The notes beneath the pieces are model-generated. The model ran no database searches, was not told the DNA's origin, and worked only from the letters and a program-made list of their open reading frames with translations. From NCBI GenBank assembly GCA_034440575.1, contig JAOTOL010001498.1, forward strand, positions 496,001-560,000: a stretch of 64,000 bases of DNA, in the 5' to 3' direction. Made by a program: the position numbers and the translations under genes. This DNA is from Imbricaverruca yamaguchii (taxonomy: Eukaryota; Arthropoda; Thecostraca; Neoverrucidae). Shown piece by piece: positions 23,571-64,000 of this stretch (the stretch's first letter is position 1; each line of letters opens with the position of its first letter).

Positions 23571-23791
23571 TGAGATGGAACTGATCCAGGCTGTACTTTG
23601 GTCCGGCCTTCTGATTTGTACATCCATGGCTTTGGGAGAGAACATACGAAATAAATATGTGTCAACAAACTTGGATGCCAAGTGGAATCAGACTCGCCTA
23701 GTACAAGAAGTGAGCGAATATTTGAATGAAGAAAACAGTGAATACTTTTGGGATTTTGTCGACCAGACATGCTCAGACAAATTTGATGCAG
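23571..23791 (+). CDS. UGGT: UGGT exon 1: signal peptide and N-terminus
   Basis: The ATG at 23,575 opens a hydrophobic segment ([20 protein letters not shown]) typical of a cleaved signal peptide. KWNQT (a possible N-glycosylation site at residue 38) and EYFWDFVD follow, matching the conserved start of mature UGGT. The donor is CAG|GTAAGC at 23,792 and the exon ends in phase 1. An acceptor-like TTTCAG at 23,565-23,570 implies an upstream untranslated exon. Confidence 0.9.
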
Positions 23792-26700
23792 GTAAGCCGA
23801 TTAGTGACTTTGTTTCATACCCCTTTCTATGTGTGCTATTGATTACCAGCAGTTGCCGCTAAGTTTCTGAACAATTTCTTAGGCTATTGCATCAAATAAA
23901 TCGGCTGGAGCCGAGACTACCCGATGTGCAAAAAGGGAGTCATTCAGTTGTGGGCTCCCTTTTTGTGGTGCTGTGGTGTTGGTGGAACCCAATGTTTATT
24001 GATGTTCGCGATTAGACTATCAAGTTTAACTGATTGGCCTACTTCGTCCTCAGGTACTTCAGTTTCGAGGTGGTTTGCTGTATTCAGATAGGTATTGTCT
24101 AATTTTGAACATGTCATTGGAACTGTCTGCATCTGAGTGACAGTGCTCCAAAATGCTTCTTAGGGTTGGGTGTCCTGGTGGAGAAGTAGTGGTGCAATAT
24201 GGATATGGCATTAAAAATGGTAATTCAGATGCAGTACAAAAATGTGGTAGCGCATTGTTTGTTCCTCTATGTTACAGCCATTCGCTACATTTGTTTGCTT
24301 GTGTGTTTGTTTAATTGCCATTTGTTACACCATGCAAACGCTGTGTCGGTGTTGGTGCCAGAGGTGCTGCATGCTAGCTGCCACCCTCAGCGTTACGTTG
24401 TATGTGCACCATGCAGACTGATGTCGATGTCGGCTCCGGAGGTGCAACATGCTAGCTGCCACCCCCAGCGTCACGTAGGCTGTACGTTGTACGTACACCA
24501 TGCAGACTGGTGTCGGTGTCGGTGTCGGTGCCAAAGGTGCTGCACCTTGGCTGCCGTCCCCAGCGCCACACTGGCTATCAGCGATTGTCGCTAGCTCGGA
24601 CGTGGCGCGACCCGACCGTGACCTGACCTGTGCTCGGCTGTGCCGTTGCAGGCGGCACCGACCAGCAGCGCTACGGCCAGCTGCTGTCGCTGGCTGGCCG
24701 CTACGTCAGCCAGTCGCAGCTGGGCCTGCTGCGGCTGTCGCTGGCGCTGCGTCAGCATTCGCCGCGCGTGGCCATGTCGCAGCAGCTGGCGGCAGCGCTG
24801 GACGCGCCCGACTGCGCCGCGTTCGTGCAGCTGGGCGCCGAGGTTGCGTGTCCGGAGGGCCTGCTGGCGCCGCTGGCGGAGGCGGCCGCCGCCGCCGCCT
24901 CTCAGCCGCGCACGGTCGCCGACGACCACCACTACAAGCAGGACGCGCCGCCGGCGGTGGCCGTGCTCTACGGCGAGCTGGGCACAGCGCCGCTCTGCCA
25001 GCTGCACGCCCAGCTGAAGGCGCTGGCCGACGACGGCAGGGTGGACTACGTGCTCAGACATTACATCAAGGTCATTGTATGCTGTGTACATAGGTGACGG
25101 TTGCAGAAGTTTGGCTGGTGTTTTGTCTGTTAGCTTGTGTGGCCGGTCGGTCAGTACGCCGTCTGTGAATCATTCATTCAGTCTGTCAGTTTGATGTTGA
25201 CGGTCTCGCAGATGTATTGGTCACCGTCGGCGTGGGGTTTTACAAGGCAGTGTCAATCCACTAGCACCGTTGTCTGCGTGGCTCATCTAACAATTCACAA
25301 CCATAGCCTCCATCACTGTCCTCTGTACCCCTGCGTGACACGTCACAGTCATTTTGTCCAGATCTTCACCATGATGTGACGCAAATACGGTCGGGATCAA
25401 AATCGCTGATAATGATTTTGTTTGTTAAGGCTGACGTCGTGTGGGTATCAGGCATTGCAGAGCCCTGTGTGTGGCCAGTAGATAGGCAGTGTAAGTCGGC
25501 CTTGTGAGGTCGCTGCCGCGCCAGACCGGACGCCGGTGACGTCAGCGAGCCTGGCGTGACGTCACATACCGTGCCGCAGCACTCGGTCAGCTCCAAGGTG
25601 CGGCTGTCGGGCTACGGTGTGGAGCTGGCCATCAAGTCGACCGAGTACAAGGCGCAGGACGACACCCAGGTGACGGGCGGCGCCGACGATGACGCCGCCC
25701 AGCACGACAGGGACGGCGACGTCGAGGGCTTCGTCTTCTCCCGGTTGAGGTGCGGCTGCGCGTCCAGGCCCACCCACGGAAATGTTCATCAAGTAGTGGC
25801 AGTTGGCATTGTGTCTAAATTCGTGAACTTCGGTGGAAAGTGGCACGCAACTCAAAACACTTTCCACCCTAGTCAAGTGTACTGTTTTTATTTTTATCCT
25901 TCACTAACGGTTCGCACAGCATCCTAGAGAGAAAGGCTTTATCGTAGCAAGTCAGTTTGGTGGATTGTCGTCATGGTTGAAAAAAGTAAGTGTCCATGGT
26001 TTTTTCACATCCAGAATATTGCCCTCTGAAGAAAATTATGCTGCCTCTTATCTGATTTGGAGCTTGAATTGCCTAGTTTGCTAGTGAACTGCTCTGTGAT
26101 GAGTCCTCAAGATTCACTGGGAAGTGCAAACTGAAATTATTATGTTACAGTTTTGAATTTTTTTTCCATATTCGATTACCTAAAATTTTCCTCTTTACGT
26201 CCAGAATTGCAAAGTACAAATCCAACCATAGTTATGGTCCCCAATTAGTGGCCCTGACCTCTTGCATTGGCATCACTGAAAGAAGGGTGGAGAGGTTGGG
26301 ATTGCCTGCGGTGTACCCACAGTCGTCAATAGTTACCTCCAGTCAGAATTTCTTGGACGAGACTGCCAGAGATCTCTGATGTCTGATGTACAGCTAACAT
26401 TATTTCTTTTGGCTTCATGTTGGTATAGTGCTGTTGAGCATTGCCCAAACAATGCACCAGGGATGCAGATCTTGTATGTGCAGGTTTACATCGTGTGTTG
26501 ATTTAAAGCAAACCAAGCTATTTGTCAACATCCTTAGACAAAGCACTCAATTTTCACTGGAAAGTGCAAACTGTGATTATGATGCCACAAATGTGAAGAC
26601 AAGTATCATCTTATTTGATTGACAAAGCATTTCCTCTTCACATCCATAAATGCGAAGTACAGATCCAAACTTGCCCTCAATGGAATATGAACTTGGACGG

Positions 26701-29700
26701 ACCTAGGTCTTCGACCCACCGCGTTTTATGTACAATCGCGGAGGTGGAGAGGCATGCCTTCATTTCGACTGGCCATTCTGTCGGATGAATGTGGTGTGTT
26801 AGCGGTAGTGGAGCGGTCATGGGCTTTGGTGAATTTACAGGGCGCGCCTAAGTGGTTTTTGGATCGCTCATTGTAAACAAGTTTGGTAGCAATAGGTGTG
26901 GTAATTCAAGCAACTTGGCTGAATGTGGACTCAGGTTTTCGTCACGTAATTCTTCCTCAGAAACGGTTCAGGTTGCGTTACGGCAGTTGATCCCCACCGC
27001 ACGGCATCTGCTACGACAAGTCTGCTCGGGAACGTGGCCAGCCCGTCTGCGGACGAGTCTACTTCCTGCTGACGCTGTTTGCGGTCCGCAGGGAACTACA
27101 CCCGGAGCTGTCGACCAACCTGACCGCCTTCCAGCGCCACCTAGTGGCTGAGAGTGCCGACATGGCGCCGCTCAAGGTGTGGCAGCTGCAGGAGCTCAGT
27201 CTGCAGGCCGCGCAGAGGGTCGCACAGGCGCCGCCCGACGAGGCACTTCGGCTGATGACTGGCCTCGCTCAGAACTTCCCCTCTATGGTCAGTAGTGGAC
27301 TCGTCTCGCTGTGTAGAACTGTCCCCCCGTCACAGTATTGGACTGCGTATGACCTTCCCTCCACAGTGAGACGAGTCAGTGGTGGACTCGTCTCACTGTG
27401 TAGCGCACCTGAACGGTCGGGAGTGGACTGCCCTGCCATCAAAGTATTGGACTGTGTATGACTTCTGGTCAGAGTGGACTCGTCTCGCTGTGTAGAACTG
27501 TCCCGCCGTCACAGTATTGGACTGCGTATGACCTTCCCTCTGGTCAGTGGTGGACTCGTCTCACTGTGTAGCGCACCTGAACGGTCGGGAGTGGACTGCA
27601 CTGCCATCAAAGTATTGGGCTGTGTTTGACCTTCCCTCTGGTCGGTGGTGGACTTATCTCGCTATGTAGCGCTACACCTGAGCGGTCGATGGTGACTGGA
27701 CTGTATCGTCGTATCGTCGTTACAGTAACAGCATTGGGCTCTGCAATATCTCAGTAGTCATGAGTGGACTCGTCTAGCTGTAGGGCTTCCACTTATTGAT
27801 TCTTCCACTGGCTTCTCTCGTGATTGGCTCTGGCTGTCTTCCCCTTTGTGCACATCCCTCTCGATTGTTCGTGCAAGGCAAATCCACATGAGCTTTGTCT
27901 GGATTATGTGAAACTGAAGGGCGAAATCATGGACTAAATTATTGTTAAATCACCCAAAAGTCCAATGGTATATCACTACAAAGCACAATTTAGGATATCG
28001 CATCAGGCAATTCGTCCAGTGTCGTATTTAGTATTTGACGCTTTGGCTGCGTGCACATACAAATGGACACCCTGAACAACGCCCATGATGACGAGAAATA
28101 CAAATATTTTATACATTAAAAAGTAGACAGATCATATGATGAAAATGTTGACAAGCCTTGTCAGCCTACATGTTGTCACTGAAAGCTGCGTGCCTATCTA
28201 CCAGGTCTGACCGTGTCGTCTCGTCTCCAGGCACGTACACTAATTCGAACCAAGGTGGAAAAGGCTCTCAAGTCAGAAATAAAGCACAACTACCAGCTGA
28301 TTTACCAGACCCTGCATCTGGACAATGCCGATTCAGCCCTGTTTGTGAATGACATGGCCTTCGACATGGAGACCACCGACATCTTCACCCTGTTCGAGCA
28401 CCTCCGTGAAGAGCAGAAAGTCGTGGAGGGGCTACACAAACTCAGTGAGCAGTTTGACACATTGTGGTGCATAAATGGGGTAGACGTTGCTGAATAACAA
28501 GTATGTGGTCAGGTGCACATGTTTGCTCCGCATGATTGGCAACTGCGATGTATGCCATTATTACTTAACCCCGTTGCTGGAGTGTAATTTTATTTTGTGC
28601 TCAACTTAGTGTAGCTGGAAATACTATAATATAGTTTGCTACATGTCGGGTGCATCATTGTTGCTAATTACCCGACCCGAAGTATTCGCTAGTGCTATGT
28701 GATGCCCTCAACTGCTGCATTGTGCCCCCAACCGCTGCATTATGCCCCCAACCGCTGCATTATGCCCCCAACCGCTGCATTATGCCCCCAACCGCTGCAT
28801 TATGCCCCCAACCGCTGCATTATGCCCCCAACCGCTGCATTATGCCCCCAACCGCTGCATTGTGCCCTCAACCGCTGCATTATGCCCCCAACCACTGCAT
28901 TATGCCCCCAACCGCTGCATTATGCCCTCAACCGCTGCATTATGCCCCCAACCGCTGCATTGTGTCCCCAACCGCTGCATTGTGTCCCCAACCGCTGCAT
29001 TGTGTCCCCAACCGCAGCATTGTGCCCCCAATCGCTGCATTGTGCATAGCTTTACCAATCGCGTCGAATCATTGTGAGAGAGCCGAAATCATGCGTTATC
29101 GGCGAACCTCGATCCCACAACACTTTTCTTACAAGTTATGTTTTGCTCGCTGCGCCCCCATACATCATTGTTGATTAGATTGTATAAACGAAACAATGAT
29201 GTAAATTTTTGTATCTCTATGAGCGACCAGCAAGCGCTCTTGACCCTTGATGACATCGCAGCCCGTTCTGGCCCTTTTTGATGTGTTCGACCAACCGGAC
29301 CGTGACCGACCGCCAGATGTGCCTGCTGCGGCGTTCGATGACCTGCTGCGCCTCGACCTGGCCTCGGCGTCGGACTCGTCGTTCGCGGTCGACTTTCGCG
29401 ACACGGCCGTCAGCTGGCTGAACGACATAGAGCGCGACCGACAGTACGCCAAGTGGCCGGCGTCCATCACCGAGCTGCTGAGGCCCACCTACCCGGGCAT
29501 GCTGCGCACCGTCAGGAAAAACATGTACCATCTGGTGCGTGCGACGGCCCTAGTGCTGCCAGATGGCGCGCTGTAGGCGTGTCCAATGGGCTACCAACAG
29601 GCATCGGTGTGCTGTGTTGTGTTGGCTGGTGACCTGTCACTTCCCAGGGGACGAGTAGTCTAGGGGTAAGTTGCCAGTGTCACAATCGAAAGGTTATGAG

Positions 29701-32700
29701 TTCGGGTCTCACCTGTGGCTACTCTTCGCCCGCGGCCAATCGGCGTGAGAGGCTGGCGACGCTACATGACTCAACGGCTGATGTGTCGTAAATCCGATAA
29801 CCAGCCATCTCCTCCCACCAAATAATTCGTCGGAACGAGTCTTGTTTTGCACCCGCGAAACAACTCAAAGTGCTTTATTGGTTTCGGTGTTTCACTGTTC
29901 CCATGCAAAGTTATTTTTCATGTATCATTCACGTCAATGTCCTCTGTGGAATGGTGATAGACGCGCTAGCTGAACGTCGTTGACCGCGATAGACATGCCT
30001 GTTCCATTAGTGCCATTAGTTTCCCTGGTTTATTGTCCATCTGTTAGGCTATCGTACCAACCGTACGGGACGCATTAACTGTGCCCCGTCGAATGGTCAC
30101 TGGCACATTAAGCTGTTTCTTTTTCCCTACCAAGTTCCCTTCCCGGAAATATATAGTGCTATTCTCTCTAAATTGCTGGGACATATCGGCTGATTTCTTA
30201 CTAGCTACCTGAATCGAGCGCTATCCTCCGAAGTTTCTTGAGCATGTCAACCGAATCCTACTTACTGACTGTTCCATCCTCCGCCTTTCTACCTGGACAA
30301 CTGCCAGCTGAGGCGTTCTGTCTCTCCCTTCCGCTCCCGCGCCTGGAAGACACCGGTATGTTTGGGAACTTCTTAACGGACCCAGCAGTTTATCAGTTGA
30401 TAAGATTTAACCTGAAAACATTGCGACCCGAAGCCAACCCTCTTGACCACCAAGCCACCATTGTCCGTGGTCTGTGTTGTCTGTGGTCGGACACGTGACA
30501 TGACCTCCGATCGACATCCACCGACAGGTGCTCGTCTTCGACCCGACGCGACGCTCCTCGCTGGACCTGCTCAACCTGGTGCAGTCGCTCTACACCAACC
30601 AGATGCCGTTCACACTGGGCCTGGTGCTGGCCGTGAGCGCCGAGCCCGACGTGACCGGCCAGCAGGACGCCGGCGTCGCCATGGCCGAGGCCTTCAACTA
30701 CGTCCTGCGCGAGGAGACGACAAAGCCGGGCCTGAAGGCGCTGACCTTCCTTATCGACGTGAGTGACTGTTGGCGTGTCGGGTCTTGGGTGGGCTGCCAC
30801 TGATGCCACTTCTGCTGCTGGTGGCGTTGCTGCGTGTCCGGCGAAGGTGAGCGTCGCGAATCCCAGTCGGCCGTGGACATGCCAGGGTCTGGTGGCATAT
30901 GCTGTGTCGTGCAAGCTTTGAAGCTTCCGTCGGCTAGCGAAGGCTCTCGTCCTCGCCACCGTCTAGGGCTGGGTGCGAGGTGAGCCGGTACTCGATGGCT
31001 GCCCATGTTATGTTTGAACCCTGCGTTCTTACCTCGCAACCGATTTCGTACTTTGCGAAGTTATGTTTCCTACTGTTGGCGTCAACCCGTAAAATTTTCT
31101 TGTTGTGAAGGTTACTATGAAAAATAATTGGAGTCTTCGGGCTGGTTTCAAAGAAGTCCATGGTCATTTCGTAGATTCCACGCTCAGTGGTCTGCGGTTA
31201 AATAATTGTCGCGTGAACACCATCATTTTTTCAAGCTAATTTCAATCGAATCGGACATTATCATCGGTGCCAAATAGCGCACACACGCCGAGGTGAAAAT
31301 CACATCCCTCCTGCGGGACGATAGCAGCTTCTAGCTATGTACGTCAGCTGATGCAGACCTGCCGTACTCTATTATCACGTGTCGACCCTCCATGTGAGTC
31401 ACTAGATCGAGAGGCGGGTCGCGTGACCGGACGTGGTTGCCGCTGCAGGTGCACGCGGCCGGTGACGGCGACGTGACGGTGACGGACGTGGAGCGCACTC
31501 TGAAGAGGCTGTACCCGTCCGCCGACGTGGCGGACATCCTGGGCGAGATGTCCGAGTACGACGCCGGACGACAGCTGGCCGAGGATTACGTCACTCGCCT
31601 GGGACTGGGCGAGGCGCCCCAGGTCAGTGTGGACGGGTCGACGGCGGAGGTACGTGATGCAGCTGTTTACCCGGTGTTTGGTCTGACTGACGCGCGGTCG
31701 TCAGGCAGGGAGTTTCCCTGGCGTAGTACAGAGTTCAGGTACGAGCGTCTTGTCCTCTCAGCGCTATGAATCTGCGACTCGAGTGCTTCGGCAACAGCTG
31801 GCTGGCCACCGCACCAGTACTGGATGAATGCTGATGCGGTGACACTTCCGCCCTCCTTCCAACTATTCACCTGGATAACGAAGTGGAATGCTAAGAGGTG
31901 TATGCTTCCCCAAACCAACCGACGATGCAACAAGTCATAACATTGTCGACTTGCTAGGCTGTGCATAGCTCATATTAGCCCAGATCGAACCTTTCCAAAT
32001 ACAAAATTCGGTCGAAATTGATCCAACGTGGCGTTGAAAAATGTTTGCTCAACTCGTACATCGCGATGACACCAGTTAAGTCAGCATCACTAACAATGTG
32101 TACGTCGGCTCTGTGCCGGTGTGGTGGCCCGAGTCGCTTCCGTGTCGACAGGTCCTCTTTAACGGTGTCTGTGTCGGTGGTGTGACCCGAGTCACTCCCG
32201 TGTCGACAGATCCTCTTTAACGGCGCGCCGCTGTCGGTACGCTCGCTATCGGCGGACACCATGGAGGAGGCCGTGCTGCAGGAGCTGATGAAGGCGCTGC
32301 ACGTCTTCACCAAGGCCGTTTACAAGCAGGAGCTGCGCAACGACGACGATATGGCCGAGTGGATTGTGTCGCAGCCCAACGTCATGCCCAGGTGACAGCG
32401 GCCTGCACCCAGCGGTGCGCAGCATCCTGGGACTTGGGTACCTGGGCCAGGTTCCCAGGTACCCTGGCCAGGTACCCGGGTGCCCTGCCAGATATCCAGG
32501 TACTCGGGTACCCGGGCCAGGTACCCAGGCACTCGGATTCAGTGTTATTGGCCATTTGTCGGCAGTGTCGGCGGCGGTCTGCGTCCATGTCCGCTGAGTA
32601 CACCGACCGGTACCACGTATCCGTCGGCACTCACCACGCACGCGACCACCACTCGCGCCAACGCGATCCCAGCCTCATCACCAGGACTAGGGATCACCAT

Positions 32701-35700
32701 ACACTAATCACCAGAAGCCATCTGTTCGCAGACTCACATTACATGCTGTTGCTGTTGTGAGCTGTTGCTCACATTGTCCACATACTGATTTTGGTCTACA
32801 TGCTGACAGACTCAACGACCGGATTCTAAAGGCGGAGCGACATCTGGTGGACTTCTCTGGGGAGGCACATGACGTGACCACTGCCGCCGAGTTCTCGCTA
32901 CTGACGCCGCGCGACATGAGCGCCTCTTTTAGCGGCTGGCTGCACTATGTCAGCCGACCTGCAAGCTCGCGTCTTCGGCAGCTCACCTACTGGGTGGTGG
33001 CCGACCTGGAGACCGATCAGGGACGCCAGCTGATGCAGGACGCGCTGCTACAGGTGGTGAGTGACAGCCTCTGCTACAGGTGGTGAGTGACAGCCTCTGC
33101 TGCAGGTGGTGAGTGGCAGCCTCTGCTGCAGGTGGTGAGTGGCAGCCTCTGCTGCAGGTGGTGAGTAGCAGCCTCTGTTGCAGGTGGTGAGTGGCAGCCT
33201 CTGCTGCAGGTGGTGAGTAGCAACCTCTGTTGCAGGTGGTGAGTGGAGCCTTGTTGCAGGTGGTGAGTGACAGCCTCTGCTACAGGTGGTGAGTGACAGC
33301 CTCTGCTACAGGTGGTGAGTGACAGCCTCTGCTGCAGGTGGTGAGTAGCAACCTCTGTTGCAGGTGGTGAGTGGCAGCCTCTGCTGCAGGTGGTGAGTAG
33401 CAACCTCTGTTGCAGGTGGTGAGTGGCAGCCTCTGCTGCAGGTGGTGAGTGGCAGCCTCTGCTGCAGGTGGTGAGTGGCAGCCTCTGCTGCAGGTGGTGA
33501 GTGGCAGCCTCTGCTGCAGGTGGTGAGTGGCAGCCTCTGCTGCAGGTGGTGAGTGGCAGCCTCTGCTGCAGGTGGTGAGTGGCAGCCTCTGCTGCAGGTG
33601 GTGAGTGGTAGCCTCTGCTGCAGGTGGTGAGTGGCAGCCTCTGCTGCAGGTGGTGAGTGGCAGCCTCCACTGCAGGTGGTGAGTGACAGCCTCTGCTGCA
33701 GGTGGTGAGTGACAGCCTTTGCTGCAGGTGGTGAGTGGTAGCCTCTGCTACTGGTGGTGAGTGGTAGCCTCTGCTGCAGGTGGTGAGTGGTAGCCTCTGC
33801 TGCAGGTGGTGAGTGGCAGCCTCCACTGCAGGTGGTGAGTGGCAGCCTCTGCTGCAGGTGGTGAGTGGCAGCCTCTGCTACTGGTGGCGAGTAGTAGCCT
33901 CTGCTGCAGGTGGTGAGTGGTAGCCTCTGCTGCAGGTAGTGAGTGGCAGCCTCTGCTACTGGTGGCGAGTGGCAGCCTCTGCTGCAGGTGGTGAGTGGCA
34001 GCCTCTGCTGCAGGTGGTGAGTGGCAGCCTCTGCTGCAGGTGGTGAGTGGCAGCCTCTGCTGCAGGTGGTGAGTGGCAGCCTCCACTGCAGGTGGTGAGT
34101 GACAGCCTCTGCTGCAGGTGGTGAGTGACAGCCTCTGCTGCAGGTGGTGAGTAGCAGCCTCTGCTGCAGGTGGTGAGTGACAGCCTCTGCTGCGGAGGAT
34201 CCAAATACCGGTGAGATTGGCGAGTCCGCTCGCGACCAATCGGCGATGGACACTATGTGACAGCAGTTGAGTGCGTCGCAACAGAACACATATTTCATCT
34301 TCTGCACGAAGAAATCACTCGCAAGTATCAAGAAATCGTATGAGAAGGAATCGCATGCAATAATTGTCCGCTTGGCTTATTTCAAGAGTGTCGGTACGTT
34401 GAAATCTAGGCGAATTGTGATGCGCAAGTGTTCCAGTTGTCGCTGTTGACGTCATACCCAAACTGTGCACGTCTTTATCCTTTTCGTGCGTGGCCGGCGT
34501 ACCGACCGCGTTTGTTGGCAATGTCTGGCGTACAGCGGCGTCCGCCGTGGTCGGCAGAAGGGTTCCCGGGACGTCCGATTGGCGTTCGTGCCCAACCCGA
34601 CGTCGCTGTCGGCCAACAACGGCTACAACAGGCGCGCCATGGCCGCCCTGTGGTCGCTGCCGACGGACGCGAGCCTCAAGTACCTGCTGGCTCTGACCGG
34701 CGGCAAACAGCAGCCGGACCGGGTGCTGCCGGTGAGGGTGGGGACGAGTGGCTGGTGCTGGGGCATGGACAGGGACTGCCGATGAGGGTGGCGACGAGTG
34801 GCTGGTGCTGGGGCATGGACAGGGACTGCCGGTGAGGGTGGGGACGAGTGGCTGGTGCTGGGGCATGGACAGGGACTGCCGGTGAGGGTGGGGACGAGTG
34901 GCTGGTGCTGGGGCATGGACAGGGACTGCCGGTGAGGGTGGGGACGAGTGGCTGGTGCTGGGGCATGGACAGGGACTGCCGGTGAGGGTGGCGACGAGTG
35001 GCTGGTGCTGGGGCATGGACAGGGACTGCCGGTGAGGGTGGCGACGAGTGGCTGGTGCTGGGGCATGGACAGGGACTGCCGGTGAGGGTGGGGACGAGTG
35101 GCTGGTGCTGGGGCATGGACAGGGACTGCCGGTGAGGGTGGGGACGAGTGGCTGGTGCTGGGGCATGGACAGGGACTGCCGGTGAGGGTGGGGACGAGTG
35201 GCTGGTGCTGGGGCATGGACAGGGACTGCCGGTGAGGGTGGGGACGAGTGGCTGGTGCTGGGGCATGGACAGGGACCGCCGGTGAGGGTGGGGACGAGTG
35301 GCTGGTGCTGGGGTGGGAGGGGGGCGAGGGTGGGGACGAGTGGCTGGTGCTGGGGCATGGACAGGGACTGCCGGTGAGGGTGGGGGGGGCGGTGTGGGGC
35401 ATGGGCGGTGTGGGGGGTGGACAGGGTGGGGCATAGGACGGGACTGCCGGTGAGGGTGGGGACGAGTGGCTGGTGGTGGGGACGCAGGGCTGTCGGTAAG
35501 AGTGGGGACTGCGGTGAGGTGGGGACGAGTGGCTGGTGGTGGGGACCGGGGGGGGGGGTGGGGACAGTGGTGGTGGTGGGGAGTCGGTGTCGTAGGTGGG
35601 GACTGCTGGTGGTGGTGCTGGGGCATGGACAGGGACTGCCGGTGAGGGTGGGGACGAGTGGCTGGTGGTGGGGCATGGACAGGGACTGCCGGTGAGGGTG

Positions 35701-38700
35701 GGGACGAGTGGCTGGTGGTGGGAGACGTCAGGGCTGTCGGTAAGAGTGGGGACTGCCGGTGAGGGTGGGGACGAGTGGCTGGTGGTGGGAGACGTCAGGG
35801 CTGTCGGTAAGAGTGGGGACTGCCGGTGAGGGTGGGGACGAGTGGCTGGTGGTGGGAGACGTCAGGGCTGTCGGTAAGAGTGGGGACTGCCGGTGAGGGT
35901 GGGGACGAGTGGCTGGTGGTGGGAGATGGACAGGGACTGCCGGTGAGGGTGGGAACTGGTGGTGTTTGGTGTGTCGTGGTAGTGTCCTGATGTGAATGTA
36001 ATTCCTAGAATCCGATTTGACAGTTTGTTTGAAGACGAAACCTGTTATCTTGGTTTTCAGGAGAAGTAAAAATCGATGTGTCAAAAATTGTCGGTACTTA
36101 ATAGTAGGGTTTCTACAAATACTTTGCCTAATATTTTGCAGATATATAAGACATCCTGATGTTGTGTCTATTAGACTCCCGTGTCACGCAGCGGGTATAA
36201 TGCATATACAAAGGGAATAGTGGAGCTGAAGATGTCAGGAAATGCAAACATGACACACATTTATAGCCAATTTTTACGAGTTTTCTTTGACCGGTTTATA
36301 TAGTTGAAAGCTGCTTGCCATGACACACTATTTTTTATCGGTAAAAGCCTCAACCATGTCTAAAATAGTCACGAATGCTCTCGAGATCCATGCCCGTTCA
36401 CACAACCATGTCTGAAATAGTCACGAATGCGCTCGAGATCCATGCCCGTTCGCCCAACTATGTATAAAATAGCCACAAATGCGCTCGAGTCAGACGAATG
36501 CGCACGTTCACCTTGTCCCGGAATCCTGACCCTCACCCTGCCCGCCACCTCACTCCGGTAAGGGTGTCTTCCTTGTGGAAGTAGCCCGACTCCCGCCCTG
36601 CCCGCCACCTCACGTCCACCCTGTGGCAGAAGCCCGACTCCCGCCCTGCCCGCCGCCTCACGTCCACCCTGTGGCAGAAGCCCGACTCCCGCCCTGCCCG
36701 CCGCCTCACGTCCACCCTGTGGCAGAAGCCCGACTCCCACCCTGTCCGCCACCTCACTTACGCCTTGTGAGATGGCGGACTTGTGGCAGTAGCCCGAGGT
36801 ACTTGAGAGTCCGAGCCAGTGAGGTCCTTGTGGCAGTAGCCCGACTCCCGCCCTGCCCGCCACCTCACGTCCTCCCTGTGGCAGTAGCCCGACTCCCGCT
36901 CTGCCCGCCACCTCACGTCCTCCCTGTGGCAGTAGCCCGACTCCCGCCTTGTCCGCCACCTCACGTCCTCCCTGTGGCAGTAGCCCGACTCCCCGCCTTG
37001 TCCGCCACCTCACGTCCTCCCTGTGGCAGGAGCCCGACTCCCGCCTTGTCCGCCACCTCACGTCCTCCCTGTGGCAGTAGCCCGACTCCCGCTCCTGCCC
37101 GCCACCTCACGTCCTCCCTGTGGCAGGAGCCCGACTCTCGCCCTGTCCGCCACCTCACGTCCTCCCTGTGGCAGTAGCCCGACTCCCGCCCTGTCCGCCA
37201 CCTCACGTCCTCCCTGTGGCAGTAGCCCGACTCCCGCTCTGCCCGCCACCTCACGTCCTCCCTGTGGCAGTAGCCCGACTCCCCGCCTCCCCCTGTGCGG
37301 CCACCTGCCCGCACCTCACGTCCTCCCTGTGGCAGTAGCCCGACTCCCGCCCTGCCCGCCACCTCACGTCCTCCCTGTGGCAGTAGCCCGACTCCCGCCC
37401 TGCCCGCCACCTCACGTCCTCCCTGTGGCAGTAGCCCGACTCCCGCCCTGTCCGCCACCTCACGTCCTCCCTGTGGCAGGAGCCCGACTCCCGCCCTGCC
37501 CGCCACCTCACGTCCTCCCTGTGGCAGTAGCCCGACTCCCGCCCTGTCCGACACCTCACGTCCTCCCTGTGGCAGTAGCCCGACTCCCGCCCTGCCCGCC
37601 ACCTCACGTCCCCCTGTGGCAGTAGCCCGACTCCCGCCCTGCCCGCCACCTCACGTCCTCGGCAGTACGCCACCTCACGTCCTCCCTGTGGCAGTAGCCC
37701 GACTCCGCGCTTCCCGCCACCTCACGTCCTCCCTGTGGCAGTAGCCCGACTCCCGCTCTCCCCGCCACCTCACGTCCTCCCTGTGGCAGTAGCCCGACTC
37801 CCGCTCTGCCCGCCACCTCACGTCCTCCCTGTGGCAGTAGCCCGACTCCCGCCCTGTCCGCCACCTCACGTCCTCCCTGTGGCAGGAGCCCGACTCCCGC
37901 CCTGCCCGCCACCTCACGTCCTCCCTGTGGCAGTAGCCCGACTCCCGCCCTGCCCGCCACCTCACGTCCTCCCTGTGGCAGTAGCCCGACTCCCGCCCCG
38001 CTCTCTCCCGCCACCTCACGTCCTCCCTGTGGCAGTAGCCCGACTCCCGCCTTCTGCCCGCCACCTCACGTCCTCCCTGTGGCAGGAGCCCGACTCCCGC
38101 CCTGTCCGCCACCTCACGTCCTCCCTGTGGCAGTAGCCCGACTCCCGCCCTGCCCGCCACCTCACGTCCTCCCTGTGGCAGTAGCCCGACTCCCGCTCTC
38201 CCCGCCACCTCACGTCCTCCCTGTGGCAGGAGCCCGACTCCCGCTCTGCCCGCCACCTCACGTCCTCCCTGTGGCAGTAGCCCGACTCCCGCTCTCCCGC
38301 CACCTCACGTCCTCCCTGTGGCAGTAGCCCGACTCCCGCCCTGCCCGCCACCTCACGTCCTCCCTGTGGCAGTAGCCCGACTCCCGCTCTGCCCGCCACC
38401 TCACGTCCTCCCTGTGGCAGTAGCCCGACTCCCGCCCTGCCCGCCACCTCACGTCCTCCCCTGTGGCAGTAGCCCGACTCCCGCCTTGTCCGCCACCTCA
38501 CGTCCTCCCTGTGGCAGTAGCCCGACTCCCGCTCTGCCCGCCACCTCACGTCCTCCCTGTGGCAGTAGCCCGACTCCCGCTCTCCCCGCCACCTCACGTC
38601 CTCCCTGTGGCAGTAGCCCGACTCCCGCTCTCCCCGCCACCTCACGTCCTCCCTGTGGCAGTAGCCCGACTCCCGCTCTGCCCGCCACCTCACGTCCTCC

Positions 38701-41700
38701 CTGTGGCAGTAGCCCGACTCCCGCTCTACCCGCCACCTCACGTCCTCCCTGTGGCAGTAGCCCGACTCCCGCTCTGCCCGCCACCTCACGTCCTCCCTGT
38801 GGCAGTAGCCCGACTCCCGCCCTGCCCGCCACCTCACGTCCTCCCTGTGGCAGTAGCCCGACTCCCGCTCTGCCCGCCACCTCACGTCCTCCCTGTGGCA
38901 GTAGCCCGACTCCCGCCCTGTCCGCCACCTCACGTCCTCCCTGTGGCAGGAGCCCGACTCCCGCCCTGTCCGCCACCTCACGTCCTCCCTGTGGCAGTAG
39001 CCCGACTCCCGCCTTGTCCGCCACCTCACGTCCTCCCTGTGGCAGTAGCCCGACTCCCGCTCTGCCCGCCACCTCACGTCCTCCCTGTGGCAGTAGCCCG
39101 ACTCCCGCCCTGTCCGCCACCTCACGTCCTCCCTGTGGCAGTAGCCCGACTCCCGCCTTGTCCGCCACCTCACGTCCTCCCTGTGGCAGTAGCCCGACTC
39201 CCGCCCTCCCGCCACCTCACGTCCTCCCTGTGGCAGTAGCCCGACTCCCGCTCTGCCCGCCACCTCACGTCCTCCCTGTGGCAGTAGCCCGACTCCCGCC
39301 TCTGCCCGCCACCTCACGTCCTCCCTGTGGCAGTAGCCCGACCTCTGCCCGCCACCTCACGTCCTCCCTGTGGCAGTGCCCGACTCCCGCCTGCCGCCAC
39401 CTCACTCCTCCCTGTGGCAGTAGCCCGACTCCCGCTCTGCCCGCCACCTCACGTCCTCCCTGTGGCAGTAGCCCGACTCCCGCTCTGCCCGCCACCTCAC
39501 GTCCTCCCTGTGGCAGTAGCCCGACTCCCGCTCTGCCCGCCACCTCACGTCCTCCCTGTGGCAGTAGCCCGACTCCCGCCCTGCCCGCCACCTCACGTCC
39601 TCCCTGTGGCAGTAGCCCGACTCCCGCCCTGTCCGCCACCTCACGTCCTCCCTGTGGCAGTAGCCCGACTCCCGCTCTGCCCGCCACCTCACGTCCTCCC
39701 TGTGGCAGTAGCCCGACTCCCGCTCTGCCCGCCACCTCACGTCCTCCCTGTGGCAGTAGCCCGACTCCCGCTCTGCCCGCCACCTCACGTCCTCCCTGTG
39801 GCAGTAGCCCGACTCCCGCTCTGCCCGCCACCTCACGTCCTCCCTGTGGCAGTAGCCCGACTCCCGCTCTGCCCGCCACCTCACGTCCTCCCTGTGGCAG
39901 TAGCCCGACTCCCGCCCTGCCCGCCACCTCACGTCCTCCCTGTGGCAGTAGCCCGACTCCCGCCCTGCCCGCCACCTCACGTCCTCCCTGTGGCAGGAGC
40001 CCGACTCCCGCCCTGCCCGCCACCTCACGTCCTCCCTGTGGCAGTAGCCCGACTCCCGCTCTGCCCGCCACCTCACGTCCTCCCTGTGGCAGTAGCCCGA
40101 CTCCCGCCCTGCCCGCCACCTCACGTCCTCCCTGTGGCAGTAGCCCGACTCCCGCCCTGCCCGCCACCTCACGTCCTCCCTGTGGCAGTAGCCCGACTCC
40201 CGCTCTGCCCGCCACCTCACGTCCTCACTCCTCCCTGTGGCAGTAGCCCGACTCCCGCCCTGCCCGCCACCTCACGTCCTCCCTGTGGCAGTAGCCCGAC
40301 TCCGCCCTGTCCGCCACCTCACGTCCTCCCTGTGGCAGTCCCTGTGAGCCCGACTCCCGCTCTGCCCGCCACCTCACGTCCTCCCTGTGGCAGGAGCCCG
40401 ACTCCCGCTCTGCCCGCCACCTCACGTCCTCCCTGTGGCAGTAGCCCGACTCCCGCTCTGCCCGCCACCTCACGTCCTCCCTGTGGCAGTAGCCCGACTC
40501 CCGCTCTGCCCGCCACCTCACGTCCTCCCTGTGGCAGTAGCCCGACTCCCGCTCTGCCCGCCACCTCACGTCCTCCCTGTGGCGGGCCCCCGCTCTCTGC
40601 CACCACGTCCACCCTGTGGCAGTAGCCCGACTCCCGCTCTGCCCGCCACCTCACGTCCTCCCTGTGGCAGTAGCCCGACTCCCGCCTTGTCCGCCACCTC
40701 ACGTCCTCCTTGTGGCAGGAGCCGGACCAGGCGGCTCGCCTAGCTGTGGCCGCCGCCGCCCTGCCGGCCGACTCGCTCGTCAAGGCGGCCACCTTCGTGC
40801 TCCGCGTGCTGCACGTGCCGGCCGGTCTGCGAGCGCTCGTGGTCAACGGTCAGCTGGTGGGGCCGCTGGCCGACTCCGAGCCATTCGGCGAGGACGACTT
40901 CGCTCTACTGGAGAAGCTGACTACCAGCAGCTACGCGACTCAGCTGGAGGGAAAGCTGCTGCGTGCTATGCCAGATGTCGGTGAGTGTTCGGCTAGGCTA
41001 GGTGACAACAAAACTTCAGGCATCAGTTTCGCGATGGAATTACCCATATAACATGCGGATGTGTTGACTGTATTCTCTGCGCCAACGGTGGTGTTTGTCA
41101 GCGGTTAGTCCACAATCGACGGTAATTGTGGGTGTCGGTGTTGCAGATGACCTCAGCGACGTTATGATGAAGGCTTCAGCTCTGCTCAACTCCCGCACTC
41201 TCAAAAAGGAGCGTTGGACTATGCCCAGCCTTCAGGAGGAACACAGGTATGGATGACCCCCATGGACGGCTCATACTATGCAACCGTGAACAGTTCTACA
41301 GACAGACTTATCACGATTTGCATTAGGCAGTGGGTGGGTGGCGTTGGAGGGTACACATTTTGCCACATGCTAACCATATCCAGTTGAGAGTTGAAAAAAT
41401 CATGAATTCGTTCAGATCGTGGTAGGCGATCAGCTGTCCGTTTTCATTAGAAATAAAGAAAACGTATATTTTCTGCAACAAAAGAAAACAAATGGCAAAT
41501 AGCGCGACGTTGAAATTGGTGCCATATTGTGACACAGTGCCGCGCTGCGGGGCCGTACACCTGTGTGACACCTGGTGCGGTGACACTCGTGCTGTGTCGG
41601 TGTCCCATGCCGCGACTGTTACGCTGTGTCGCGCTGTGACACCTGGTACGGTGACACTCGTGCTGTGTCGGTGTCCCATGCCGCGACTGTTACGCTGTGT

Positions 41701-44700
41701 CGCGCTGTGACACCTGGTACGGTGACACTCGTGCCGTGTGTGGGTGTGGCGGCTCGTGCTGTGTCGGTGTCCCATGCCGCGACTGTTACGCTGTGTCGCG
41801 CTGTGACACCTGGTACGGTGACACTCGTGTGTGTCGGTGTCCCATGCCGCGACTGTTACGCTGTGTCGCGCTGTGACACGCTGTGTCGGTGTCATGGCTC
41901 GCGGTGACACTCGTGCTGTGTCGGTGTCCCATGCCGCGACTGTTCGGTGTCGCGCGGACGCTACACTCGTGCTGTGTCGGTGTCCCATGCCGCGACTGTT
42001 ACGCTGTGTCGCGCTGTGACACCTGGTACGGTGACACTCGTGCTGTGTCGGTGTCCCATGCCGCGACTGTTACGCTGTGTCGCGCTGTGACACCTGGTAC
42101 GGTGACACTCGTGCTGTGTCGGTGTCCCATGCCGCGACTGTTACGCTGTGTCGCGCTGTGACACGGTGACACTCGTGGTGTCGGTGTCCCTGCCGCGACG
42201 TTACGCTGTGTCGCGCTTTGGTACGGTGACACTCGTGCTGTGTCGGTGTCCCATGCCGCGACTGTTACGCTGTGTCGCGCTGTGACACCTGGTACGGTGA
42301 CACTCGTGCTGTGGAAGTGTCCCATGTAACCGTGCGCCGGCATCAGTGTGGTGCACATACCGGCGGCCGACCCGACCCGGCCGTCGCTCGACCTGGTGGC
42401 CGTCTGCGATCCGGTGAGCCGCGGCGCCCAGCGGCTGGGCCCCCTGCTGACCGTGCTGCAGGAGGTGTTCAACGCCGACATCCGGCTGGTGCTCAACCCG
42501 CAGGAGAAACACAGCGACATGCCGCTCAAGAGGTGGGTCACGCCTCTTCATTCACCCGCTCATCCATTAACGCAGTCGATGCGCCCCTAAACTCCAATAA
42601 CCAACCAACCAACACCCGCACATCCATTGGCTGGTTGGTGGTTGTTCGCGGCTTTGCGACGCACTAAGCAGCTGAGGCGACATGGCGCCGCCTGTCTCTC
42701 AGGAAGGGTGGCCACCGCTGGGAATCGAACCCGTACCACTGGTTTCACGGTTTAGCCACTGAGCTATCAATGTCATGTGCATCCACTGAGTTTGCCACAC
42801 TCTCCGGCCGCGCTCGTCACTTACGCGGTGTGGTGACATGAGCTTGACCTCGGCCGATTACGTGTCGCGTGGGCTGGTGCTTCGGACCTCGACCAGCCAA
42901 TCGTGCGTGACAGACCGATGGTGCCGAGAATAAGGTGGGGCGTCGGTAGCTCAGTGGTTAACCCGCGCCGTCTTTCCGGTCAAATCCTCACACCCCGTCT
43001 CAGGGGGGGGGGGGTGAAGACCCCCTCTAAAATCCAAACTAAGCATCGCACGAAAACGAACGAGGCGTCATCGGAAAGCGCTCGACGGGTATGGTCCGGG
43101 TCCATCCTCCCAAACAATTTCCTCCCAAAGGTGACGTCACCAGGGGGCTAGATTTTCACGACTTTTTACGACTTACATTATGTTTTTGACTCTGGGGAGT
43201 TCATTTTGGAGATATATGAGAAAAAATGATTTGGAATAAGAAAGGGACAGCGAAATCGACCAGTGGTATATTTTTTTGTCCCCTCCCCCCCCACAATTTT
43301 TTTCTTCTTCAAAACTGAGTTTTCAAGCTTTCTTTAGTTTTCCTTTTCCAGTGGGTAGAGCAGACCGAGAAACGTTGTTGGAAGTCAAGTTGCCCTAATA
43401 AATGCTTACTTTAGCCAGAATCCTCTGTTTGAACTGCAATTTGGCAAATCCGCAAAATTTATATGTAGTCACAAACGGAAAAAAATTCCACTCGAACGTT
43501 TTGTTGCATCCGTAAAGATAAGCAAACGCTGAAAGTTTCGTTAAAATATCTATCCGTTAAAGTGTGACGACTGGTTGAACTTTTTTGGACATGACCCAAC
43601 TTGAACTTGACTAACTCGTTGACCCTAGATGATCTGACCTAAAAATTCTGAATCAGCATGTGAAATTGATGTGGGAAAAGGTATGCCAAATCTGGGCGCG
43701 CTCCCGCGCGCCGTTCGTCCGCTATCTGCGAAAAACCAGGAGGGGGGGGGCGGTTGAAGACCTCCCGAGACGGGACGAGTTAAGCTGAGCGTCTGGCGTG
43801 CCAGAGGTACGAAGTTCGATTCCCCGCGATGCCCGCCCTTCTTGCCAGGGTGAAAGGAAGACGACGCTGTATGGCTTCAGCTGCTGAGTGTCGTAAGGCC
43901 ACAATCAAATTCAGTCCAGTAGAGAATAAGTTACTCGGGCTTATTGATTTTATGCTACCGGAATTTTTTTTTACCGCTGCTCTGATGCGCTGGTGGTTAC
44001 TTCATGCTCAGCTGCTTGGTGTCCGTTCGACCGCCAGTGGAGTAAAGTTTCCCTCCGTTCCCGAGCGCCAGTGGAGTAATGTGCCCCTCCGTTCCCAACC
44101 GCCAGTGAAGTAATGTACCCCTCCACCCTCAACCTCCAGTGGAGTAATGTGCCCCTCCGTTCCCAACTACCAGTGGAGTAATGTGCCCCTCCGTTCCCAA
44201 CTACCAGTGGAGTAGTGTGCCCTCCGTCCTCAACCACCAGTGAAGTAATGTGCCCCTCTGTTCCCAACTACCAGTGGAGTAATGTGCCCCTTCGTCCTCA
44301 ACTGCCAGTGGAGTAATGTGCCCCTCCGTCCTCAACTGCCAGTGGAGTAATGTGCCCCTCCGTCCTCAACTACCAGTGGAGTAATGTGCCCCTCCGTCCT
44401 CAACTACCAGTGGAGTAATGTGCCTGTCCGTCCCCAGCCGCCAGTGGTGTGACGTGCCTGTCCGTCCCCAGCCGCCAGTGGTGTGACGTGCCTGTCAGTC
44501 CCAGCCGGTGCCTGTCCGTCCCCAGCCGCCAGTGGTGTGACGTGCCTGTCCGTCCCCAGCCGCCAGTGGTGTGACGTGCCTGTCCGTCCCCAGCCGCCAG
44601 TGGTGTGACGTGCCTGTCCGTCCCCAGCCGCCAGTGGTGTGACGTGCCTGTCCGTCCCCAGCCGCCAGTGGTGTGACGTGCCTGTCCGTCCCCAGCCGCC

Positions 44701-46212
44701 AGTGGTGTGACGTGCCTGTCCGTCCCCAGCCGCCAGTGGTGTGACGTGCCTGTCAGTCCCCAGCCGCCAGTGGTGTGACGTGCCTGTCCGTCCCCAGCCG
44801 CCAGTGGTGTGACGTGCCTGTCCGTCCCCAGCTACTACCGCCTGGTGCTGGAGTCTGCGCCACAGTTCAGCGCCTCTGGGGAGCTGGTGGGGCCGTCGGC
44901 GCGGTTCACCGCCTTGCCGGGCGGACCGATCCTGACCCAGCACTACCACGTGCCAGACAATTGGATGGTGGAGGCGGTCGTCTCGCCGTACGACCTGGAC
45001 AACATCAAGCTGGATGAGGTGGAGCACGGCGTGCACAGGCAAGGCGCCACCCACCAACAGTGTAGTGCATGGTCATGTCCCGTGCAGGTGTTACGTACAA
45101 GGTGTCTTTATTTATAGGATGAAGAGGGGTCGCGGTAGCTCAGTCAGTATGGCGTTGGACTCTAGATAGTACGATCATGGGCTCGTATCCCACAGCCGGT
45201 GGGATTACCGAGTCCGCTCGCGACCAGTCGGCGTGAGAGATTGGTGACACTAAGCGGCCTAGCAGTTGAACGCGTCGCAAAAGAAGCCAAGTTTCTGTTC
45301 TTGCAGATGTGGGAGGGGACGCTTACTACTGCAAACACTTTCGCCCGATTCTTATCTTTGGGAAAGGTTGGCATCTACCGTCTGTATCTAACCCTATTTG
45401 TTCATATCTATACGTTTACGAGGTTGCAAATGCTGGAACCGAAAGGCTGGTCAGAAAGCATGGTCGTGACCAGCGAGCTTTTGATCGATCTTTCAGCTAT
45501 ATACCGGTCATTCACCGGTTCATATATGATTTAATTGTGAAAAAGAAAAAAAATGACATGGGCACATTCTGAAAAAAAAACAAATTTTAATCTGGATTCC
45601 CAGGTCCATTTCAACATTTCACCCACGATTTTTGTTCGTTGCATTCAACAATCTGAAGATATATACTTGAATATTCCACAATATCAGAACATGCTCATTG
45701 CTGAAAGCAGCCGATCATGAAAGATGTTGGCTAACAGCTTGAACATATCACTGACATATATTTTAAAAAGCCATACTTGACATTGGCGTCAAGACAAGAA
45801 ATGTTTGGCAGTCGACGCGCCCCTAAACTCCAATTCATCATCATCAAGACAAGGAATGTTTCAATTTATTTTGTGAACTATCTAACAATGGGATATTCAT
45901 GTTTGCCAGGTTAAAATGTTAAATTCATGATTTAATTTTTTTTAAAACTAATATTCCAACACAGTTTAAGATGATATTATGTACCATTATGGCTTTTCAT
46001 CTTTGCCAGTGCCAAAAATCTACATCACTGTATGCAAAATGTGTTCACCCACAATGGAAGCAAAAGTAAGCTGTCTATTGGAAGGTATAGCTGTTTGTAT
46101 CTCAAAACATGACAGTCCCAATTATGATATTCTTTTTAAATGGAGTATCAGAAGTTAGGAAGATTAACATTTGCATTTTATGAGGTGTTGGGAACGATGA
46201 TTGTGTTGGGTA

Positions 46213-46281
<69 letters not shown>

Positions 46282-49200
46282 TGTATGTATGTATGTATGT
46301 ATGTATGTATGTATGCATGCATATATGTATATCATGACAGCTCACGTTTTATATCTTTCGGCAAGCATTTCTCCTCTGTACCCAGTCAGACTTGCGCTCG
46401 GACCGTCGTTCTGCCATCTTCCTCAGCGACTTCGAGTTGGAGCACCTACTGCTGGAGGGCCACTGCTACGAGCAGAGCACGGGGAACCCGCCGCGCGGTC
46501 TGCAGGTGACGCTGGGCACCAGCCGTCAGCCGGTCGTCGTCGACACCATCGTCATGGCCAACCTGGGCTACTTCCAGCTGAAGGCGTCGCCCGGCGCCTG
46601 GACGCTGCGACTGCGTCAGGGCAGGTCGGCCGACCTCTACAGTCTGGTCAGGTCAGTGCCGGCGACCTCTAGTCTGGTCAGGTCAGTGCCGGCGACCGCC
46701 AGTCTGGGCAGGTCAGTGGCGGTGACCTCGATAGTCTGGTCAGGTCAAAGCGGGAAACATCCACAGTTCAGTGTGGTGAGGCCAGGCTGGCGACATATCC
46801 CGTTATCTGGTGGGGACTTCATCTTCATTTGGTTCAGAAGACAGTGCAGCTTTGGGAGCTGACAAAGGCACCAGTTGGCTCTCATACGAGATCTCTGGAA
46901 GTGGCCAGTGCCACTGCTATGCCATGTATCAGTGCCTAGTCTCGAGCATTTGATCACGCTTGTTCCGGACGTGGCGGCAGGTATTTTGTGCAGCTTGCCG
47001 ATGTTACATCTTTACATATCCTGTGATCGGACCTGACTCAATGCTGCCTGATCTGATGTGGACTGATGTGGTGTGGCTATGTGACCTGACGGCAGCATCG
47101 GCGCCCGTGTGATGTGACATGGCCTATGGCTTGTGACATGCCTTACGACATGGCTTAATTCTACTTCAGCGTGTTCCAGTCCGGATAGGCATAACCTTTC
47201 TTAACCTCAGCCCAACAGCGATTCGACCTAACAGTCTTTGGCGATGTTGGTACGACCTGGTATGAGAGGTTACCGGGCCGTGTTCTCGGCTGGACTGTGT
47301 CGACACATCGGTTAACTCCAGTATAGTTCTTGGTGCAACCTAATCTGACCCGACCTGACCCCGTTCCAGTCTGGACGGACACGACCTTTCGACCAACTCG
47401 AGCGGCGTCGACGTGGTGATCAGCTCGTTCCGATCGCACGTCGTCAAGCTCCGCGTGGCCAAGAAGCCGGGCATGGACGACCAGGACCTGCTGAGGGACG
47501 ACGGCGTCGACAGCGGCGGCCTGTGGGGCTCCATCAAGAGGTGCGGCCGGTCGGTGCGACAGTCACCAGCCCCAGTCGTGTCCGCTGTGTTTCCGTCCGC
47601 AGTGGGCTCACCGTCTGTAGACAGAACTGCCACGTCTGCTGAAACGATGGATGATGTATAAGCGGCATGGGTGTGAGTTTGGCCTTTGTTTCGGTTGGTT
47701 TCATCATGGTAGTTAGTGCTGCCTGTTGCGGGAGCGGTTAGCCTTAGCTGAGCCTATTTTTGCTTTGTGGCCCTATGTTTAGTCGCTTGAGATATACATG
47801 TAAGAGCAAACTGATCGGTTGCGTGACGAAATGGCGGCACCATGAGCGACGACGCACATACAGTCGGACTGACGACCATGTGTCAGCCGTAACCGTGCTC
47901 CCTTGGTGTTGGCACGTCACAAACGTGGTGTGGTGAATTCCGGAAATGGTATGGCTCCAACTAAAATATTGTCGCTGTAAAGCCTGCTGCTACCATGTAG
48001 TTAGTTGGCTCCAAACACTTGTTGATGAGTATGCCAAGAGTCCGGTTGGTTCAATGGTCATCAGTCCGGTCATAGAGTGGCGACTGTGAGGAGATTGTGA
48101 TGCCGCAACATGTCGGAATGTTACGAGTGGCCGGGGTGTGACGAGTGGCCGTGCAGTGTCTGGGTGTGACGGGTGGCCGTGGTGTGTCTGGGAGTGACGA
48201 GTGACTGTGGTGTGTTTGTGTGTGACGAGTGACCGTGGTGTGTCTGTGTGTGACGAGCGACCGTGGCGTGACGAATGGCCATGGTGTGTCTGGGAGTGAC
48301 GAGTGACCGTAGTGTGTCTGTGTGTGACGAGCGACCGTGGTGTCACGAATGGCCATTGTGTGTCTGGGTGTGACGAGTGACCGTAGTGTGTTTGGGTGTG
48401 ACGAGCGGCCGTGGTGCGACTGGGTGTGACGAGTAACCGTAGTTTGTCTGGGTGTGACCGGTAACCGTAGTGTGTCTGGGGTGTGACGAGTAACCGTAGT
48501 GTGTATGGGTGTGACGAGTGACCGTTATGTGTCTGGGTGTGACGAGTGACTGTGGTGTGACTGGGTGTGACGAGTGACCGTTATGTGTCTGGGTGTGACG
48601 AGTGACTGTGGTGTGACTGGGTGTGACGAGTAACCGTAGTGTGTCTGGGTGTGACGAGCAACCGTACTGTGTCTGGGTGTGACGAGTGACCGTTATGTGT
48701 CTGGGTGTGACGAGTGACTGTGGTGTGACTGGGTGTGACGAGTGACCGTTGTGTGTCTGTGTGTGACGAGTGACTGTGGTGTGTCTGGGCGTGACGAGTA
48801 CCTGTAGTCTGTCTAGGTGTGACGAGTGACCATTGTGTGTCTGGGCGTGACGAGTGACCATTGTGTGTCTGGGTGTGATGAGTAACCGTAGTGTGTCTGG
48901 GTGTGACGAGCAACCGTACTGTGTCTGGGTGTGACGAGTGACCGTGATGTGATTGGGTGTGACGAGTGACCATTGTGTGTCTGGGCGTGACGAGTGACCA
49001 TTGTGTGTCTGGGTGTGACGAGTGGCCGTGGTGTGACCGTAGTGTGTCCGTGTGTGACGAGTGACCGTGGTGTGTCTGGGTGTGACGAGTGACCGTGGTG
49101 TGTCTGAGTGTGACGAGTAACCGTGGTGTGTCTGGGAGTGACGAGTGGCCGTGGTGTGTCTGGGAGTGACGAGTGGCCGTGGTGTGACCGTGGTGTGTCT

Positions 49201-63514: not shown

Positions 63515-64000
63515 GTGAGTGCACGGAGCTGAGCCCGCTGAAGGATGTGAACCGGTGCTGCGGTCGGCTGGGATACGTGCAGGTCCAACCAGTGGGCGGC
63601 GTGGCTCCTGGTCGGTGCGGCTAACTGGCGGACCTGCCGTCCTATCGCTCAGTCTCGCCCGCCACCCATGTTACTGCTGGTGCTACTATCGCACTATTTC
63701 TGCTATTATCGCTATTACTGTCAATATCACTATTACTGGAAAAAATCACTATTACTGTCAATATCACTATTACTGTCAAATTCACTGCTACTGTCAATAT
63801 CACTATTACTGCTACTACAGCACCAGTACTATTGATATTGGTGCTACTACTGCCCTAAACACCATATATTTGGTCCGGTTTCTAGAGTTTATGCAAATTT
63901 ATATAACCATGCAACTTGATTTTCTGCTAAAGAAGGGTGGCAGAGCATATGCATGTCTCGCACCTTCATCGCATACTGAGCTCGTGAACCTCATGGGTTT
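63515..64000 (+). repeat. Start of UGGT intron 23 with ATCACTATTACTGTCA-type repeat
   Basis: An imperfect short tandem repeat built on CACTATTACTGTCAATAT occupies about 63,680-63,855. Nothing else is recognised before the window ends. Confidence 0.75.

Follow-up and report, generated by a model that had tools for sequence, protein, structure and literature searches.

The closest described counterparts of the repeats reported here are the 'mirages' of amphioxus, minisatellite-like arrays that run across a donor or an acceptor splice site, take exonic bases into the unit and vary in unit length. According to the reports concerned (PMC3087553, PMC3902484), they occur in Adh3, troponin C, the globins BflGb6 and BflGb9, and PGBD5, seemingly without disturbing splicing; length instability between haplotypes or somatic cells is one of their traits. 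Repeats of the same build are found in the UGGT gene of Imbricaverruca yamaguchii (Arthropoda; Thecostraca), in a stretch of 64,000 nucleotides (bases 496001-560000 of contig C1265, in an assembly of 767 Mb and 1,430 contigs) that is called the window below. Among 170 junctions sampled in UGGT and in myosin genes, 14 have same-strand copies of the junction sequence (score at least 18), in 13 cases with an alignment that crosses the boundary by at least 4 bases, and both boundary types are involved (10/82 donors and 4/88 acceptors). In the sampled genes, arrays involve splice junctions about as often as they involve intron DNA of matched GC content. The arrays are probably mirage-type minisatellites, that is, local GC-driven births whose founding unit straddled a junction by chance and whose duplicated splice sites are tolerated.

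Unlike the amphioxus cases, the present one has seven affected junctions within a single gene and as many as about 86 copies of a unit, and its rate was measured against GC-matched intron DNA. The evidence on splicing also differs: amphioxus mRNAs were spliced normally by reverse transcription PCR, whereas here it is an intact reading frame with the exon-proximal sites. A first-pass annotation of the window had known of no gene with so many splice-site arrays. The phenomenon as such was already on record in the mirages. Among titles and opening lines of abstracts, with most subscription journals outside this scope, no further animal with splice-junction arrays was noticed. The arrays are real and recurrent, are present in several genes, and make a new and apparently frequent case of mirages.

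Three other systems share some of these features. In intron gain by tandem duplication of AGGT-bearing segments (PMC3443670) the duplicated segments likewise carry splice sites; the UGGT arrays, however, lie at one intron end, the two ends have no unit in common, and the position of intron 16 appears to be old. The repeat units of tandem-repeat genes such as UBC and VCX3A (PMC10809524) also carry splice signals, but these repeats belong to the coding gene and one site serves as both donor and acceptor, whereas the extra copies in UGGT, judged by the reading frame, lie in introns. Introners (PMC9860276) likewise repeat similar splice sites within one genome, but as dispersed copies, unlike the two UGGT units that were searched for. 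Internal tandem repeats that alter gene structure are also reported for human genes (PMC2812944).

Repeated splice junctions in UGGT

The UGGT gene lies at 23575-63624 (+) of the window and has 23 exons and 22 introns, hence 44 junctions. Around each junction, 40 bases (15 from the exon and 25 from the intron) were aligned with the neighbouring 1 kb of intron. Seven of the 44 junctions have a same-strand copy, with scores of 26-37; the next-best UGGT junctions score 13. In a reverse-complement control over all 170 junctions a score of 14 was reached once and a score of 16 or more never (0/170). The seven are exactly the donors of introns 4, 10, 11 and 16 and the acceptors of introns 8, 11 and 14 that the first-pass annotation had picked out as repeated.

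Arrays, all on the + strand, were located by Tandem Repeats Finder (TRF). The donor of intron 4 (27287) has a degenerate array that TRF detected only in part (27427-27571); it occupies 27281-27760, and the donor region recurs in it at +87, +180, +255, +353 and +469. The other six were found by TRF and the copy test alike. The donor of intron 10 (33056) is crossed by 44 copies of a 26-bp unit (33045-34193), that of intron 11 (34731) by 50-bp and derived 67-bp units (34726-35958), and that of intron 16 (46651) by 4.3 copies of a 30-bp unit (46615-46747). On the acceptor side, two 58-bp units lie across the junction of intron 8 (32210; array 32110-32223, one copy at -58) and about 86 copies of a 48-bp unit across that of intron 11 (40719; array 36566-40727), while 24 copies of a 34-bp unit (44031-44832) run up to that of intron 14 (44832), where the copy takes in 1 exonic base only. 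Another donor for intron 10, at 33053, is likewise in frame. Most of the 26-bp units in this intron read CAG, then GTG and GTGAGT, so that a copy could in principle be an acceptor and a donor around a 3-nt exon.

With up to two mismatches allowed, all genome matches (767 Mb) of the 26-base unit (37/37) and of 25 bases taken from the 48-base unit (80/80) fall in the UGGT locus. Privacy to the locus covers these two units, and for them it bears out the earlier proposal that the arrays arose separately. Arrays had also been said to come close to the acceptors of introns 13 and 19, and they do: 71-bp unit arrays at 41564-42326 stop 20 bp short of the former (42347), without including the junction, and a 63-bp unit array at 54996-55438 stops 25 bp short of the latter (55464). 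An array of 85 copies of a 19-bp unit lies deep in intron 22, away from junctions (58945-60572). Both were located by TRF on the + strand, as was the intron 13 group.

Junction copies in myosin genes and the array background

The second sample consisted of myosin-head exons of other genes, from 20 regions. A search with the PF00063 hidden Markov model gave 72 matches, of which 50 were used; one intronless gene was excluded and 23 exons were added by tblastn, for a total of 72. Their junctions were predicted from splice-site scores: the score filter left 127 of 144 possible ends, and 126 of these had flanks long enough for the test. Myosin genes are paralogues and so not fully independent. Same-strand copies were found at 7/126 of these predicted junctions, which agrees with the view that the process recurs in this genome. 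Three of the seven are long arrays, namely a 39-bp unit in 18 copies at a donor (L050), a 39-bp unit in 11 copies at another donor (L047), and an 87-bp unit holding 49 exonic bases, in 14 copies, at an acceptor (L055). The remaining four have one to three copies each.

Arrays of period 10 or more make up 42% of UGGT introns and 2% of its exons. Within the introns, array DNA is 66% GC and other DNA 49% GC. Array coverage is 2% in the 23.6 kb upstream of UGGT (1-23574), where transposase-like and reverse-transcriptase-like frames were seen by eye, and 23% in the fetched myosin DNA. Twelve random 1-kb windows, drawn from 11 contigs and landing on five, have 2,113 of 12,000 bases (17.6%) in arrays, all within three windows.

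Junctions compared with other intron DNA

When whole arrays are placed at random in UGGT, 6 or 8 junction overlaps (depending on tolerance) are seen against 0.04-2.4 expected (p < 0.006). This test was set aside as too lenient, since it counts the inserted repeat as DNA that was present earlier. Because arrays are inserted DNA, a fair control must undo the insertion by means of collapsed coordinates. Going outward from the junction, only the first unit of each array was accordingly kept; the control consisted of 12,336 windows of intron DNA lying 120 bp or more from an exon. Raw coverage by arrays is lower near the exon edge (5-9%) than beyond 200 bp (15-30%), which would suggest depletion, but array length dominates this measure and it was not used.

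GC content matters a great deal for this comparison. At score 22 a copy was found for 1.7% of control windows below 45% GC, then 2.4%, 5.6% and finally 11.3% above 65% GC, and for a 40-base intron window the chance of belonging to a founding unit is about 2% where GC is low and about 11-13% where it is high. The mean GC of junction windows is 0.60 vs 0.49 in the control. With GC matched, the 14/170 copied junctions compare with expectations of 14.7, 12.9, 11.6 and 9.4 at thresholds of 18, 20, 22 and 25. The ratio of observed to expected at threshold 22 is 1.2 (gene bootstrap 0.44-2.05). When window and flank were varied over five settings, of which the first was the original one sampled more thinly, the counts were 14, 14, 19, 14 and 14 seen vs 13.6, 13.1, 14.6, 13.4 and 12.9 expected. 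Held against their own control, myosins have 7/126 copied junctions vs 8.1-8.3 expected in four settings, and 12 vs 9.0 in the fifth; UGGT, held against its own introns in the same collapsed and GC-matched manner, has 7/44 vs 5.5-6.5. Thus the idea that exon borders are preferred is not supported in the sampled genes, where deep-intron windows of matched GC behave alike: the overlap of arrays with splice sites that the first-pass annotation had proposed to test is enriched against whole-array placement, but hardly at all once arrays are collapsed and GC is matched. Windows in exon interiors are another matter, with a copy in 3-4/473; by our own estimate coding interiors are depleted roughly tenfold relative to the GC expectation. 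That UGGT collects several junction arrays is probably due to its 22 introns, its GC-rich exon borders and the 42% of its intron DNA that is in arrays.

Age of the arrays and effects on splicing

Searched at the protein level, exon 16 has 203 homologous open reading frames (ORFs). The intron 16 comparison covers the 120 listed of these 203; 73 have a motif that places the exon end and the other 47 were dropped. Exactly at the end of UGGT exon 16, 24 of the 73 stop; others run into unrelated residues, and a further group codes onward without intron 16. On this comparison the position of intron 16 is old and common to other animals, and its array did not create it. The donor is not followed by a repeat in the two closest homologues of those listed (91% and 90% identical), and none of the 73 ORFs fitted a crude pattern meant to catch a repeated exon end. 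By eye, no repeat precedes the intron 14 acceptor in two homologous ORFs, which share 90% and 87% identity over 68 aa. A search for homologues of UGGT exon 10 found none. To judge from these homologues, the arrays of introns 14 and 16 look young.

In genes with long introns, site pairs that are nearest across the exon are favoured, according to the abstract of PMC9225289, and this proximity rule of exon definition would select the exon-proximal copy at either exon end. When splicing at inner sites of UGGT was modelled for 23 alternatives, 20 led to a premature stop; the three that keep the frame belong to intron 4 (one) and intron 16 (two). In six arrays the splice motifs do not consistently surpass the rest of the unit in conservation (window rank 2/26, 41/50, 26/48, 17/34, 11/39 and 35/83), so there is no sign in these arrays that inner copies are needed. 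An early hint of motif conservation (0.005 vs 0.062 for intron 10 and 0.002 vs 0.052 for the intron 11 acceptor) came from rough chopping of the arrays and was not supported by wrap-around alignment and window ranking. This apparent conservation was caused by a small number of variable columns in other parts of the unit.

The origin that we favour would work as follows. GC-rich local sequence would seed tandem arrays anywhere, and a tandem duplication that happened to fall across one junction would give two donors or two acceptors. With the exon-proximal site used, the other copy would be intronic and the protein unchanged. The exon's own copy would then be held by selection, while the others could grow and become homogenised by slippage or unequal exchange.

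We put at about even the chances of a broader statement, that amplification affects splice junctions as readily as deep intron sequence of equal composition and that about 1 in 12 sampled junctions (1 in 18 without UGGT) founds a minisatellite. If this is true and general, there would be thousands of junction-founded minisatellites genome-wide. Selection would hardly see dozens of near-perfect decoys, with nearest-across-exon pairing alone picking the site, and the genome would offer a replicated natural experiment in how one splice site is chosen among 2 to about 86 similar ones. Copies of splice sites are usually regarded as harmful decoys; here the weakness of selection against such decoys would be quantified. 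The case also illustrates that what looks striking in a single gene may, when arrays are counted as inserted DNA, be the background level of a repeat-rich genome.

Alternative explanations

Several results weigh against a chance origin, and some of them favour an alternative in which the borders of exons and introns act as mutational hotspots where tandem duplications arise preferentially, with chromatin, R-loops or replication pausing as conceivable causes. At threshold 25 the 14 copied junctions exceed the 9.4 expected, as do the 19 vs 14.6 in one of the five settings. Donors are copied more often than acceptors (p = 0.09), which was not predicted, nor would a neutral origin predict the difference between UGGT and the myosins (Fisher p = 0.051). 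UGGT was chosen for its striking appearance, and it is from the reading frame only that we infer use of the exon-proximal copy. Array starts are denser near exons, at 2.15 per kb within 40 bp of a junction (28 in 13,045 bp) vs 0.75 per kb beyond 100 bp (110 in 147,208 bp), a ratio of 2.9 (gene bootstrap 1.8-3.9) that GC strata remove only in part. The near and far rates are 3.35 vs 1.59 per kb at 0.6-0.7 GC and 6.06 vs 2.32 above 0.7, but 0.84 vs 1.14 at 0.5-0.6, where the order is reversed; weighting by GC stratum gives about 17 starts expected against the 28 seen, about 1.7-fold by our own arithmetic. UGGT taken alone also exceeds the pooled control, which predicts 2.6-4.0 copied junctions in place of seven. 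The array-start count was given less weight because it includes arrays that merely start near exons and because its GC window overlaps the array. The copy test, which requires the junction itself to be included, finds little excess or none over the GC-matched expectation, and the comparisons of myosins and of UGGT with their own controls point the same way, the fifth myosin setting apart. We consider a border hotspot unlikely on this balance, although a mild border effect on array starts is possible.

Use or regulation of the extra splice sites, as decoys, as dual-specific sites or in noisy isoforms, seems very improbable. It would fit the three frame-preserving inner donors of introns 4 and 16, the human precedent in which dual-specific AGGT sites in tandem repeats are used (PMC10809524), and the retention of GT or AG in 40/41 units for intron 10, 11/12 for the intron 11 donor, 82/83 for the intron 11 acceptor, 9/15 for intron 14 and 4/4 for intron 16, as counted by rough chopping. 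Against it are the premature stops from most modelled inner sites and the window ranking, in which splice motifs do not consistently fare better than the rest of the unit. Lower still do we rate the possibility that the arrays are remains of intron creation by tandem duplication of an AGGT-bearing exonic segment, a model that the first-pass annotation had brought up and that is well documented elsewhere (PMC3443670). Although the units carry splice sites, and the CAG-GTG-GTGAGT of the 26-bp unit holds both AG and GT, the model misfits in that donor and acceptor regions do not come from one segment: donor-60 vs acceptor-60 comparisons score 5-13 in 22/22 UGGT introns, indicating two ends without a common unit, and in intron 11 the donor and acceptor arrays are built from different units. 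For intron 16 the model is largely refuted by the shared position in 24/73 of the listed ORFs with the motif. Just as improbable is an assembly artefact, with repeats collapsed or inflated at the arrays. Copy numbers of long arrays are hard to assemble, and the exact numbers may well change, but scattered variants distinguish the copies, like arrays are present in several genes on contigs of 0.27-3.7 Mb, and the two-unit and four-unit cases are short.

UGGT gene model

The exon model of UGGT was built by hand from reading frames and splice signals. Exons 1-6 (+) are at 23575-23791, 24652-25070, 25580-25749, 27092-27287, 28231-28444 and 29317-29534; exons 7-12 (+) at 30528-30758, 31449-31622, 32210-32391, 32810-33056, 34558-34731 and 40719-40980; exons 13-18 (+) at 41147-41246, 42347-42532, 44832-45038, 46427-46651, 47370-47540 and 50594-50774; and exons 19-23 (+) at 51312-51494, 55464-55567, 56538-56679, 57347-57493 and 63379-63624. 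Together the 23 exons give a single open frame of 1,531 aa in which every junction is in phase, and the six UGGT Pfam domain families are present, in order, in the product. An acceptor at 29262 for exon 6 was rejected: it breaks the frame between exons 5 and 6, whereas 29317 restores an open frame. The array-placement and array-start analyses, the first copy test and the pooled control had used 29262; a rerun with 29317 again gave 7/44 for UGGT and 14/170 for all junctions. Exon 15 has one match only in the whole assembly. In the best model introns 15 (45038) and 18 (50774) have a GC rather than a GT donor.

Other observations

Similar tRNA-like stretches, with box-A/B-like motifs and a common tail, were seen by eye at 29650-29760, 45130-45290 and 50065-50210 of the window and downstream of the exon in one myosin region (L028); they are probably a tRNA-derived short interspersed element. 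Two dynein heavy-chain loci (C1340:1405036-1406250 and C1347:1730189-1731385) each lie in one uninterrupted open frame, 4,734 and 4,283 aa long respectively, and a myosin head at C1177:278919-280796 is a single frame of 720 aa. All three are apparently intronless copies next to intron-rich paralogues.

In each of two genes (C1272:95309-99684 and C1274:891202-894468) the myosin relay exon is present in three tandem copies. They resemble the mutually exclusive exons of arthropod Mhc; tandem relay exons of this kind are known as a pancrustacean trait and suggest an arthropod host. In a further myosin region (L056) one exon occurs twice (4535-4663 and 6378-6506), the copies being 1.8 kb apart and having identical predicted splice sites.

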